Assembly (NCBI GenBank): GCA_937960435.1
Contig: CALGPN010000015.1
Location: forward strand, 1 to 64,000
Reading direction: 5' to 3'
DNA from: an uncultured Desulfosoma sp.
GTDB taxonomy: Bacteria; Desulfobacterota; Syntrophobacteria; Syntrophobacterales; DSM-9756
Length of the DNA: 64,000 bases
Position 1 is the stretch's first letter. The number at the start of each line of letters is the position of its first letter. Positions 44,840-48,969 of this stretch are shown piece by piece. Below the pieces are notes generated by a model. That model worked only from the letters and a program-made list of their open reading frames with translations, did not search any database and was not told where the DNA came from. The position numbers were made by a program, and so were the translations under genes.

Positions 44840-45640
44840 TTAGAGCCGTTCCAGGTGTTCCGGAGGATCGGCGCCCGGCGGTCGGATCTTCCGCTGGACC
44901 TCCTCGCGCAGCTTTTCCTTTTCCGACTCCGTCAGAGCCCGCTCGGGCTCTTCCAGCACAAGGGGAGCCTCCAGCGTTCCATAGACCGTCGTGCCGGTGA
45001 GGATGCCTCGCGTCTTGGTGACAATGAGCTGGAGGATCCATCCCGAATCCCCGATGAGCACGGCGAAGCAAAACGCGCCGTAAACCGTTTCCAGAATCCT
45101 CGCCCACCTGACCGGCACATCGGTCACAATGGTTACCGTCCCTTCTGTAAGTTTCTTTTCATCCCCGTCATGGGCTACGGCCAACGTCAGTCCGTCGACC
45201 CGGATTTCTTTTTTCACTAGGGGGCGGCGCAGCCGAGAGGCCACATAATCGAGCACCACGCGGTGATTCGCTTCATCGACCGGAGAAAAACCATGATAGT
45301 TCAAATCGCCATGGGAATGGATCCACCCGTTGACCACCCGCCCCGGTTGAAGTTCTTCTTGAAAGGCCAAAAGATCCGCGCTCTCGAGACTGGTGTACTG
45401 CTGAAAGTTGGCGGCGTTTCGCGGCAGCCCGATGTCCGTAATGACCTCGGGACGGCTCTCGTCCCCCAAGGTGAGGCCGTACCACTCGCAACTTTGCCCG
45501 TAGAGTTCCCGCACCAGGGCGCACACCGTCAAGGCCTTGTTCCGGGCATACCCCGTCATGACCACCCGATCCGGAAATCGCCCCAAGGGGATTTCCATCA
45601 TGGAAGGTCTTTTTAAATCGGCCAGTCTCTTCACCCTCAT
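44840..45640 (-). CDS. JAMM/MPN-type metallo-isopeptidase
   Basis: 266 aa. A complete JAMM ligand set is visible: Glu52 (CEWYG), His108 and His110 (WIHSHG), Ser119 and Asp122 (FSPVD). The distance between the second His and Ser is eight residues instead of the canonical seven (Rpn11 type), so the loop is one residue longer. Fold-typical flanks are VCALVRELYG and NGWIHSHGDLNYHGF. A C-terminal part (180-266) contains a hydrophobic hairpin and an acidic/basic tail. Such proteins cut isopeptide bonds of ubiquitin-like modifiers or release their C-termini. AAGGAG 11 bases before ATG 45640 fixes the start; the gene follows the AAA+ gene directly. Role in this operon inferred. Confidence 0.75.
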   Translation of the reverse strand: MRVKRLADLKRPSMMEIPLGRFPDRVVMTGYARNKALTVCALVRELYGQSCEWYGLTLGDESRPEVITDIGLPRNAANFQQYTSLESADLLAFQEELQPGRVVNGWIHSHGDLNYHGFSPVDEANHRVVLDYVASRLRRPLVKKEIRVDGLTLAVAHDGDEKKLTEGTVTIVTDVPVRWARILETVYGAFCFAVLIGDSGWILQLIVTKTRGILTGTTVYGTLEAPLVLEEPERALTESEKEKLREEVQRKIRPPGADPPEHLERL

Positions 45641-45656
45641 CGCCGTAAAAACTCCT

Positions 45657-46760
45657 TCAGGCCAAAGCCGCCTTGACATGCATGGCGTTCACCTCGTATT
45701 CGCCTGTGTGGGTGCCGGGCAAAGAAAACATGGGTTCCAGAAGCACGCGATGGAGGATGCTCGTCAGCCCCCGGGCGCCCACCCCCTCCTGCTCCGCACG
45801 CCGCGCCACCTCCAAAACAGCCTCTTCCGTAAAGACCAGGCGAATGCCCCAGGCTTCAAAATCCTTGATAAAGGCCTGAAGCGGGCTGTCTTCGCTCTTG
45901 GTGAGGATATCCCGTAGGTTCGCCGTCGTGAGCGCATTGTAGACCACGCGAACGGGCAGCCGGGCCATAAGCTGGCGTTCCATGCCGTAGCGGACCAAGT
46001 CGTCCGGCAGGAGGTGCTCACGCCAAAACCCCTTGGCGCCGTGCCGCTCCATGCGTTTCTGGACAATTTCTTCCAACCCGTCGAAGGCGCCCCCGGCGAT
46101 AAACAGCACATGGCGGGTGGACAGGGTGAGGCGATCCTTGCCGAATTCGATGGTGTTCTCCATCCCCTCCAGCATTTTCAGGAGTCCCTTCTGAACTCCC
46201 TTGCCCGAAACATCTTTCGTCAGAGTTTTTTCGGAAGCGATCTTGTCGATTTCGTCGAGGTAGACCATGCCCGTTTGAGCCGTCAGGGTATGCCCGCCGG
46301 CTGAAACCAGAAGGTCCACTAAAATGTCCGACGTGCTTTGCCCCACGTAACCCGTTTCGCTGAATTTCGTCAGATCTTCCACCACGAAAGGCACTCCCAC
46401 CAACCGAGAGGCCACCTCGCACGTGTAGGTTTTTCCGCAGCCCGTCGGTCCCACGATGAGGATATTGGCCTTGGGCGTCTTGACCCTTTGCAAAGCCTTT
46501 TCCACATCGCCGCCGCTGGTCACGGCCGCTTCCTGCAACGCCGCCCCCAAACGCCGGTAATGGTAGGCGATGGCCGTGGCCAAGACCTTCTTTCCTCGCT
46601 CTTGGCCGATGACATAGCGATCCATTTCGGCCTTGAGCTGAGACGGCGTCTTGTCGAAACTCGTGATGTGTTCCACGGTCTGCGCGGTTTTACGGTCCCG
46701 CACTCCATCCATTTTTTCTCGAATTCTCAAACGGCTTTCGGGAGCCATGGATTCAGCCAT
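45657..46760 (-). CDS. ClpX-like AAA+ unfoldase without zinc-binding domain or ClpP loop
   Basis: 367 aa. Walker A GPTGCGKT (104-111), pore-1 loop GYVG (137-140), Walker B MVYLDEID (165-172), sensor-2 region GARGLTSIL (328-336) and the RLPV stretch (near 267) are intact, so ATP hydrolysis and polypeptide threading look possible. The N-terminal ClpX zinc-binding domain is absent. Where ClpX has its IGF loop for ClpP docking, this protein has a shortened GAKGFWREHLLPDD (near 241-254). So it is not the housekeeping ClpX and probably does not feed ClpP. The start at ATG 46760 overlaps the preceding gene; an inner ATG (46748) is possible. It is flanked by the 148-aa gene and the JAMM peptidase. 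Confidence 0.88.
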   Translation of the reverse strand: MAESMAPESRLRIREKMDGVRDRKTAQTVEHITSFDKTPSQLKAEMDRYVIGQERGKKVLATAIAYHYRRLGAALQEAAVTSGGDVEKALQRVKTPKANILIVGPTGCGKTYTCEVASRLVGVPFVVEDLTKFSETGYVGQSTSDILVDLLVSAGGHTLTAQTGMVYLDEIDKIASEKTLTKDVSGKGVQKGLLKMLEGMENTIEFGKDRLTLSTRHVLFIAGGAFDGLEEIVQKRMERHGAKGFWREHLLPDDLVRYGMERQLMARLPVRVVYNALTTANLRDILTKSEDSPLQAFIKDFEAWGIRLVFTEEAVLEVARRAEQEGVGARGLTSILHRVLLEPMFSLPGTHTGEYEVNAMHVKAALA

Positions 46761-47199
46761 GAGACGCCTCCGGGGCCCGTTTCTTGGCTGCATAATACCG
46801 GTACAGAAAGGCGTAGCTGTACCGTTTGAGCCGTTGCGGAGGAATGCTCGGGTCAAGGGCGTAAAGGGGACGGCTCAACAACACTTCTTCCGGGGATGCA
46901 GCCCACGGAAGGTAAGGACATTGAACGCGGGAGAGGATGGTCTCCAAAGGGGCAAACTCTGAGGGATCGACCAGGGCAAAAAGGGGGAGCGGCACCGAGG
47001 CTTTGCGGGGACCTTCCCGGGCAAGGGCCCGAGCCACCGTGCGTGATACCGGCTCCTCGTCCAGCAACCTCAAGAAGCTTTCCCCGTTCAGCCCAAAAGC
47101 CTCAAGGATCGCCGCCACACGGGTGAAGGCGTCCGGTTCAAAAACCTCCGGCGTCTTGCTTCTCTCTCTTCGCTTTTGGATGGAATCCTTTAAGCCCAC
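46753..47199 (-). CDS. Uncharacterised 148-aa protein in the Ubl/E2/AAA+/JAMM operon
   Basis: I do not recognise this protein. From GTG 47199 it is rich in helices with an early basic segment (SIQKRRERSK) and a central hydrophobic part (VPLPLFALVDPSEF, RVQCPYLPWAASPEEVLL), ending RYSYAFLYRYYAAKKR. There is one Cys and no zinc motif, so it is not a RING or E1. The frame also opens at GTG 47280, but that extension has no ribosome site. It overlaps the AAA+ gene by 8 bases, so it is translationally coupled and likely an adaptor or subunit of it; that is inference. Confidence 0.55.
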   Translation of the reverse strand: MGLKDSIQKRRERSKTPEVFEPDAFTRVAAILEAFGLNGESFLRLLDEEPVSRTVARALAREGPRKASVPLPLFALVDPSEFAPLETILSRVQCPYLPWAASPEEVLLSRPLYALDPSIPPQRLKRYSYAFLYRYYAAKKRAPEASHG

Positions 47200-47370: not shown

Positions 47371-48606
47371 TCATGAAAAAGCGTTGGTTATGGGAATTTC
47401 CCCGGAAAGACAGCGCGGGTCGTCCAAAGGAATCTTTAAGTCTTCGAAATGAATGTCTCTCTGAAGACCGGGCAATTGATCCAGCGGATGATAGCCGTTT
47501 CGCTTTCGTGGGTCGTACCCGTGATATAAGGCGTTGAGGCCGTCTTCCAGGGACCGAATGATGTGAGCCGCCGTAAAGGATCGCCCTGCCGGGGAGCGCC
47601 CGAGACAGATTCTCTGCCACGGCTGATGGCGAGCCAAAAGAGGATGCTTGTAGTTGTCCATGACGACCGGCCAAAGGTCCTGCGAGGTTACCGCCACACG
47701 ACAATCGGGGAAAAGGTAAAGCCGGTTGTAATAATCCCGCAGGGCATAAGGGCCGCTGCGTTTGTAAATCACCACCGCTCCATCAAAAGCCCTTCTCAAA
47801 AAACCATAGCCGTCCACTTCTAGGGCTCCCCGACTCAAGACAAAAAGCATGAAACCCACCGCGGCTGAAGGCCAGTCCCGATACGGGCGCAGGGCTTCCC
47901 GCAGCCTGTCTTGTTCCCGCCTGATGGATTCCCGGTATGTCCTCTCCAGGGCATCTTCCAGAGCCTGCTGCAACGCACGGGCTCCAACAATCCATTCTTC
48001 CTCAGGGTTCGGAACCCCGGCGAGGAAGGAATCCGCCCCATGGGTTCCTTTCGAATCTCTGGCGTCCCTCCGGATATCCTCGGCCCAGCGAACGAACCGC
48101 TCCGGGATGCCGATCTTCTTCGAAAGCCACAACGCCAGGGCCGCCGGTTTGGTCTCTGCCGATTTCACCCAAGAGGGCAGACGCACAAACCGAGGCAGGA
48201 CCTCGAAAAGCGCCGTCTCGAGATGAGCCCTGCTTGCCATGGAAGGCAGAGGTTTTCTGTCGCCGAAAAGCTCTCGCTGGACCTTTTCCCGGACGCGCCG
48301 TGCAAGCCGAGGGAAAAGAATATGAGCATGGCGCACAAGCCCTTCCCACGGGATGTTCTCCACATAAGGGATCCCTTGTTCAAAGACGATCCTCGGTCCT
48401 CGTTCGTCCCTTCGAGACATCTGGGATGGGGTCTCAGGATCGGCCGCCTTCTTCATCTCCGTGGCGATTTGCGGATCCATAAGGCACGGAAGATAGATGG
48501 CCCCGTCTTTCAAAAGAGCGCACCGGCCACCAAAGCTAAGAAAAAATCGACCGAAATCGTTTTTCTCTCGTCTCTTTTCCGATCGCCCGCTCATTGGGAC
48601 TCTCAT
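47371..48606 (-). CDS. E2-like (UBC-fold) protein of a ubiquitin-like system
   Basis: 411 aa. Residues 290-370 resemble an E2 core: LFPDCRVAVTSQDLW, then HPLL (321-324), then RICLGRS with Cys334, then a helix (IIRSLEDGLNAL). The HP...ICLG pattern is that of E2 enzymes and of prokaryotic E2 domains such as the Prok-E2_D/PRTRC_B type as I recall them. The larger N-terminal portion (1-280) is unrecognised; it contains basic helices. The start codon ATG directly follows the Ubl stop (TGA-ATG), with AAGGGGG in the Ubl C-terminus serving as ribosome site. No E1 is encoded alongside. The E2 call rests on a short motif and on context. Confidence 0.55.
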   Translation of the reverse strand: MRVPMSGRSEKRREKNDFGRFFLSFGGRCALLKDGAIYLPCLMDPQIATEMKKAADPETPSQMSRRDERGPRIVFEQGIPYVENIPWEGLVRHAHILFPRLARRVREKVQRELFGDRKPLPSMASRAHLETALFEVLPRFVRLPSWVKSAETKPAALALWLSKKIGIPERFVRWAEDIRRDARDSKGTHGADSFLAGVPNPEEEWIVGARALQQALEDALERTYRESIRREQDRLREALRPYRDWPSAAVGFMLFVLSRGALEVDGYGFLRRAFDGAVVIYKRSGPYALRDYYNRLYLFPDCRVAVTSQDLWPVVMDNYKHPLLARHQPWQRICLGRSPAGRSFTAAHIIRSLEDGLNALYHGYDPRKRNGYHPLDQLPGLQRDIHFEDLKIPLDDPRCLSGEIPITNAFS

Positions 48607-48969
48607 TCAGCCCCCTTCTTGCGGCCTGAGAGCCCTCACAGCCACGTAGTAGTACTTTTCCCCGTCATCGGTTTCTTCCACCCGGGCTCTCTCCAAAGGA
48701 TCCCCGTCAATGGGCCGCCCGGCGCACAAAAGAACCCCTCGTTCCATCTGCGCCAAGATATCGTCGAGAACCTCCCGCTCTTCGACGGACAGATCCTGTC
48801 TCGCAAGAATGGCATCGACCAGTTCCTGAAGCGTTCTGCCTTCATAAGTTCCCGGCTCAAAGACCTCCAGGAGCCCTTCGGCCGCCTGCCCCGGAATGAT
48901 TTCCACCACCAGAGGCACCGGCATTTTTCGCAATTCTTTATCTTTTTCCTCGAGAACTCGAACCGTCAT
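48607..48969 (-). CDS. Small ubiquitin-like protein ending in Gly-Gly
   Basis: 120 aa, first gene of the operon. The C-terminal half, VLLCAGRPIDGDPLERARV (79-97) and the final strand YYYVAVRALRP with EGG at the end, follows ubiquitin's own RLIFAGKQLEDG...VLRLRGG. The N-terminal half (LVVEIIPGQAAEGLLEVFEP; TLQELVDAILAR) fits a beta-hairpin and helix with an insert. Gly119-Gly120 is the natural C-terminus, so no maturation cut is needed before activation. It presumably is the modifier handled by the E2-like and JAMM genes next door. Weak similarity only; not tested by search. Confidence 0.6.
   Translation of the reverse strand: MTVRVLEEKDKELRKMPVPLVVEIIPGQAAEGLLEVFEPGTYEGRTLQELVDAILARQDLSVEEREVLDDILAQMERGVLLCAGRPIDGDPLERARVEETDDGEKYYYVAVRALRPQEGG

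Follow-up and report, generated by a model that had tools for sequence, protein, structure and literature searches.

Bacterial operons of the Bil, Bub and CBASS type II systems, and the operon classes of Iyer 2006, are organized in whole or in part around the logic of a ubiquitin-like modifier (Ubl), an E1, an E2 and a JAB peptidase (PMC11354881, PMC12687455, PMC13373217, PMC10097602, PMC1779556). The described Bil, Bub and CBASS type II systems act mostly in phage defence, whereas the cassette analysed here, found in a 64,000-nucleotide stretch of DNA (the window) from an uncultured Desulfosoma sp., is linked almost constantly to a dedicated relative of ClpX. In the papers examined on these systems, a link to a ClpX-like unfoldase is not described, although an earlier mention is possible. 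We conclude that the E2-like protein of this cassette is probably a diverged E2-type enzyme of a complete bacterial Ubl conjugation system that is coupled to a ClpP-independent unfoldase. The pairing of a Ubl system with a ClpX-type machine suggests that a tag-and-unfold pathway of their own has evolved in some bacteria.

The cassette resembles several described systems in part. With BilABCD it shares a Ubl, an E1 with two adenylation-type halves, an E2 and a JAB peptidase, found together (PMC11354881). In Bil, the Ubl precursor is trimmed by the JAB, BilA has two beta-grasp domains, and the E2 carries a CEHH motif in which Glu, His and His follow the Cys at +6, +8 and +13 (PMC11354881). In contrast, the 120-aa Ubl of our cassette has one predicted beta-grasp domain, and CEHH is absent from the E2-like protein, where the window has Ala, Arg and Ala at +6, +8 and +13 from Cys334. 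An extra N-terminal region in the E2, an added ClpX-like AAA+ protein, an added protein termed P175 and the lack of a defence neighbourhood further set the cassette apart from BilABCD. Bub operons likewise combine a Ubl, an E1, an E2 and a protease, and the E1 described below weakly matches Citrobacter BubCD in the PDB (E 0.0066). The regulators of Bub operons, namely CapW, CapH with CapP, or CapK with CapS (PMC13373217), are not recognised here, and a ClpX-like partner is present. Class 6d of Iyer 2006 (Ubl, JAB, E1, E2 and an alpha-helical protein) has five like components, including an extra uncharacterised protein, but its E2s lack the conserved His and no AAA+ protein is named for it (PMC1779556), whereas His-Pro is invariant in our E2-like proteins. 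The Caldiarchaeum modifier CsUb is a GG-tailed precursor that the JAMM enzyme CsRpn11 cuts exactly after Gly-Gly (PMC6043591). The homologues of our Ubl resemble the CsUb precursor in their pattern of GG followed by a tail, and our Ubl has CsUb among its structural matches, whereas the Caldiarchaeum system is archaeal and includes a RING E3. To our knowledge, that system has no ClpX-like partner.

Organization and distribution of the cassette

The cassette is ordered Ubl, E2-like protein, P175, ClpX-like AAA+ protein and JAB. The second gene, encoding the E2-like protein of 411 aa, lies on the minus strand at 47371..48606, exactly where the initial annotation, which gave no strand, had placed its open reading frame, and its ATG, preceded by a purine-rich stretch, abuts the TGA of the 120-aa Ubl gene (48607..48969, minus strand). 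Of the cassette proteins of the window, the AAA+ protein alone is matched in library scans; the E2-like protein has no family match in Pfam, NCBIfam, PADLOC or PHROGs. P175 (46753..47280, minus strand) is a conserved partner, present in 20/20 of the first loci and likewise free of family matches, whose true start is perhaps the GTG at 47199, as judged from the alignment and a purine-rich upstream stretch. Its match to ribosomal protein L20 in a PDB search was weak and was judged to be chance.

Of 196 related genomes searched, 28 have the E2-like protein, and 18 of the 20 loci first examined hold all five genes in the same order. Scanning the genome contigs with a single-sequence query returned no loci; an alignment query returned 46 loci from named genomes, and the cassette order recurs in most of them. 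The carriers are almost all metagenome-assembled genomes of the Deltaproteobacteria/Desulfobacterota type (Desulfobacca, Syntrophobacteraceae, Desulfarculales and Desulfobacterales), with one Methylomirabilota among them (L068). Desulfoferrobacter suflitae DRH4 (L095), the only strain with a name, has the E1 adjacent to its cassette and may be workable at the bench. Several incomplete cassettes run to a contig end or sit in gapped assemblies (three checked). In one genome (G044), Ubl-E2-P175 (L052) and ClpX-JAB-E1 (L120) lie far apart on one chromosome; L052 contains runs of N, and the split is probably an assembly artefact.

No E1 is encoded within the operon of the window, whose genome holds five ThiF-family matches. 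The E1 of the system, a 471-aa protein, is encoded on another contig (G000:C5:23130-24542; L004/L101) and matches ThiF (PF00899, 8.8e-29). By eye it consists of two Rossmann-like halves, a C-terminal ThiF domain and an N-terminal half with no Pfam match; its PDB matches are Uba4, UBA5, Uba1, Cap2 and BubCD, and its NLNRQ motif is conserved in 41/41 sequences. Strong orthologues of this E1 (E below 1e-60) were observed in 28/28 genomes with the E2-like gene and in 1/168 genomes without it, and in that lone genome the contig starts inside the ClpX-like gene and continues with JAB and E1. The Fisher test on this co-occurrence takes no account of the ancestry that the genomes share, and its value should not be read as the probability of independent events. 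Outside the genus of the window, the E1 adjoins the cassette in most genomes, either after JAB or before Ubl; within the genus it stands apart from the other five genes (G000:C5, and also G001:C14 and G002:C5). The distant E1 of the window counts against the Ubl-system reading, but the co-occurrence and the adjacency elsewhere point to a six-gene system from which one gene has split off in this genus.

The same cascade might serve anti-phage defence, in the manner of Bil or CBASS type II, rather than protein maintenance, and we regard this as a real though rather unlikely possibility. Ubl conjugation in Bil and CBASS does function in defence (PMC11354881, PMC10097602, PMC12687455), and the presence of the cassette is patchy, at 20 of the 395 genomes of the phylum. 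The genes that flank it, however, are mainly of housekeeping types. When 107 flanking ORFs, picked mechanically so that some may not be genes, were compared with PADLOC, only the DndA and SspA models matched, with two ORFs each, and we read these matches as IscS-type cysteine desulfurases; a defence island thus found no support in this set. PADLOC also fails to recognise the E2-like, Ubl, P175 and JAB proteins themselves, and searches of plasmid, phage and viral-contig sequences turned up no relatives. Together, the housekeeping flanks and the lack of such mobile carriers argue weakly against a mobile defence system.

A predicted ubiquitin-like modifier with an invariant PQEGG motif

In the AlphaFold model of the Ubl (50 sequences, pLDDT 85.4), two strands and then two helices are followed by three strands, a predicted beta-grasp with an extra helix. 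Foldseek alone found no significant match for this model. After structural re-ranking, the 50 matches listed were nearly all SUMO, ISG15, NEDD8, ubiquitin and archaeal CsUb, with Z between 5.1 and 6.0 over about 75 residues among those listed. Residue 120, the last of the protein, is in register with the terminal glycines of the mature forms, residue 93 of SUMO-2 and residue 76 of ubiquitin. Comparison of the Ubl profile with PDB sequences gave only weak matches that were judged to be chance, and hhalign against small hand-typed ubiquitin profiles, a comparison of low power, gave none.

The PQEGG motif that ends the Ubl of the window is invariant in 51/51 homologues. Nothing follows it in the window and in five homologues; in most others a tail of between 1 and 64 residues comes next, and three Desulfobacca-type loci continue directly and in frame into a GNAT acetyltransferase domain. 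A constant GG with unrelated tails or a foreign domain behind it is typical of a precursor that is cut after GG. The Ubl-GNAT fusions (L037:10799-11626, L056:7057-7929 and L058:7051-7917; Acetyltransf_1 E 6.7e-18 in L037) recall ubiquitin fusion precursors.

Sulfur-carrier operons likewise contain GG tails, E1-like proteins and JAB (PMC1779556, rows 4a-4e), and the Ubl could in principle be a sulfur carrier in the style of ThiS, MoaD or CysO, with E1 and JAB serving thiocarboxylate chemistry and the E2-like protein acting in sulfur transfer or as a scaffold through its two invariant cysteines, Cys302 and Cys334. We consider this improbable: the structural neighbours of the Ubl among the chains compared are SUMO, ISG15, ubiquitin and NEDD8, the E2-like protein has a predicted E2-like fold, and the genes that recur beside the cassette include no rhodanese, cysteine synthase or other sulfur gene.

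Conservation and predicted fold of the E2-like protein

The initial annotation had noted His-Pro at residues 321-322 and a catalytic-type cysteine at 334, and had made conservation of Cys334 in homologues a test of its proposal. Both features are where it placed them, and in our alignment of 53 sequences (the window and 52 distinct loci) His321, Pro322 (codons at 47641..47646, minus strand) and Cys334, the proposed thioester cysteine (47605..47607, minus strand), are identical in 53/53. Equally invariant (53/53) is a second cysteine that the initial annotation had passed over, Cys302 (47701..47703, minus strand), within the segment YLFPDCRVAV. The HPN-like motif lacks its Asn, the position being occupied by Phe in 45 sequences and Leu in 8, so that the protein departs from textbook E2s in this substitution and in the extra invariant Cys302. 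The HPN Asn is missing in several bacterial E2-like families too. Conservation is hardly detectable in residues 1-29, moderate in 30-117 and 146-259, and strong in a core at 260-378; P40, D44, P138 and F140 in the N-terminal region are invariant or almost so.

The AlphaFold model of the full-length protein has a pLDDT of 78.6, with a well-predicted C-terminal part that comprises a helix at 247-259, strands within 261-307 and a helix at 346-362. His321-Pro322 and Cys334 lie in the loop that precedes this last helix. Foldseek with the full-length model gave no significant match. Structural alignment (VIA) against the PDB returned 11 rows at Z of at least 2, of which the top eight all belong to E2 or UEV proteins: UBE2N (4.9), Ubc13 (4.6), UbcH7 (4.3), UbcH5b (3.8), Ubc1 (3.6), Ubc3 (3.5), UBE2Z (3.0) and Uev1a (3.0). 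The remaining rows, three unrelated proteins, have Z of at most 2.2. Taken alone, E2/UEV values of 3.0-4.9 for a predicted model are middling, favouring a UBC fold yet staying under a firm threshold, and the missing HPN Asn, the Foldseek result and the lack of a sequence-level match to any E2 family speak against an E2. The near-exclusive E2/UEV matches, the invariant His-Pro and Cys and the context of Ubl, E1 and JAB nevertheless make an E2 the best reading. Whether the segment from His-Pro to Ile-Cys belongs to a UBC fold had been raised at the outset; it sits in a region that aligns almost only to E2/UEV proteins, with Z not above 4.9 and no significant Foldseek match. In sequence-based comparisons, hhalign against small hand-typed eukaryotic E2 profiles, again of low power, gave no match, and a match of the E2-like profile to SOS among PDB sequences was weak and judged to be chance.

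The extent of the E2-like part exceeds the roughly 80 of 411 residues first estimated, given that conservation spans about 260-378 and the E2/UEV alignments about 122-392. Because these alignments start near residue 122, the E2-like fold probably takes helices from the N-terminal region, with an insertion ahead of the sheet. The 280-residue N-terminal part that was initially described as unrecognised therefore has to be divided: residues from about 122 onwards probably lie within the E2-like fold or are inserted into it, and the description holds for about 30-117, probably the nearer limits of the wholly unrecognised module. The N-terminal region has no match in the family libraries, and residues 27-281 used as a query found nothing credible among PDB sequences. 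A putative role in binding the AAA+ partner or the substrate, as the initial annotation had suggested, fits the variability of this region.

Two other assignments of the chemistry deserve weighing. Since Cys302 is as invariant as Cys334, it could carry the Ubl in place of Cys334, or the two might form a structural or redox pair. We find this improbable as well, because Cys302 falls inside a predicted strand (296-307), whereas Cys334 follows His-Pro and precedes the helix at 346-362, an E2-like layout. In E2s, the catalytic Cys comes after HP and ahead of a helix. Alternatively, the protein could be catalytically inactive, like RWD or UEV proteins, and merely present the Ubl or the substrate, with transfer carried out by E1 or P175. 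The missing HPN Asn and the presence of Uev1a among the structural matches are compatible with this, and inactive E2-like proteins are described in bacterial Ubl operons by Iyer 2006 (PMC1779556). RWD/UEV proteins lack the cysteine, however, whereas Cys334 and His-Pro are invariant here (53/53), and we judge an inactive protein very improbable.

A JAB peptidase and a ClpX relative without a ClpP-docking loop

The AAA+ protein of the cassette (45657..46856, minus strand; true start perhaps the ATG at 46760) is clearly a ClpX relative, scoring 240.2 bits against TIGR00382, under the NCBIfam cut-off of 370.75, and matching ClpX in the PDB. With ClpX it shares the AAA+ core, the Walker motifs and the GYVG pore loop, which is kept in 43/44 members. 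It differs from ClpX in that the zinc-binding domain is absent from the members aligned and that the ClpP-docking (IGF-type) loop is lost, being shortened by at least 8 residues in 44/44. The genome of the window also encodes a canonical ClpX beside ClpP, as well as a proteasome-family peptidase beside HslU-like matches. Given the lost docking loop, the retained pore loop and the separate canonical ClpXP, the simplest inference from these sequences is that the ClpX-like protein would unfold proteins without ClpP. A third ClpX-like protein in this genome (G000:C3:145680-146783, L152; an open frame of 615 aa that scores 315 bits against TIGR00382) retains an IGF-type loop, GVGF.

The last gene encodes a 279-aa JAB/JAMM peptidase (44840..45679, minus strand; true start perhaps the ATG at 45640, after AGGAG). 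Prok-JAB (PF14464) matches 10/19 related JAB proteins, with a best E of 1.7e-4, and the metal-site residues, the Glu of EWYG and an HxH...SxxD motif, are present in 42/42. The top PDB match, 6fju (CsRpn11-type), is insignificant (E 0.56).

Proposed pathway

From gene content, conserved residues and predicted folds we infer all of the enzymatic steps, as well as the roles of the E2 N-terminal region and of the unfoldase. The E1, encoded elsewhere in the genome, would adenylate the C-terminal Gly of the Ubl and transfer the Ubl onward, to be held as a thioester on Cys334 of the E2-like protein, beside His321-Pro322. The E2-like protein would then pass the Ubl to target lysines, and the choice of targets might be helped by its variable N-terminal part or by P175. 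The ClpX-like hexamer may pull or unfold the tagged proteins without handing them over to ClpP, and JAB may both trim tailed Ubl precursors after GG and strip the Ubl from targets. More tentatively, and as a possibility rather than an expectation, we propose a self-contained ubiquitin-unfoldase pathway for protein maintenance instead of phage defence, in which Ubl tagging by E1 and the long E2 would feed a ClpX-derived, ClpP-independent segregase that works with JAB. This would be an independent bacterial counterpart to the logic of Cdc48 and Rpn11, in which the E2 N-terminal module or P175 would connect tagging to the unfoldase. The cassette offers a small, testable system for joining tagging and unfolding where no proteasome takes part, with a bearing on the origin of the link between ubiquitin and AAA+ machines.

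A further protein family accompanies some of these loci. It is about 90 aa long, probably coiled-coil, and its members mostly end in PPHG (e.g., L054:6580-7167, L053:10142-10486 and L099:12746-13132). Its genes stand before E1 in the E1-first layouts and, in a few others, beside E2 or after E1. The family was not found in the genome of the window; it occurs, often in several copies, in 24/196 genomes, and 19 of these also carry the E2-like gene. A role as partner or substrate is possible.
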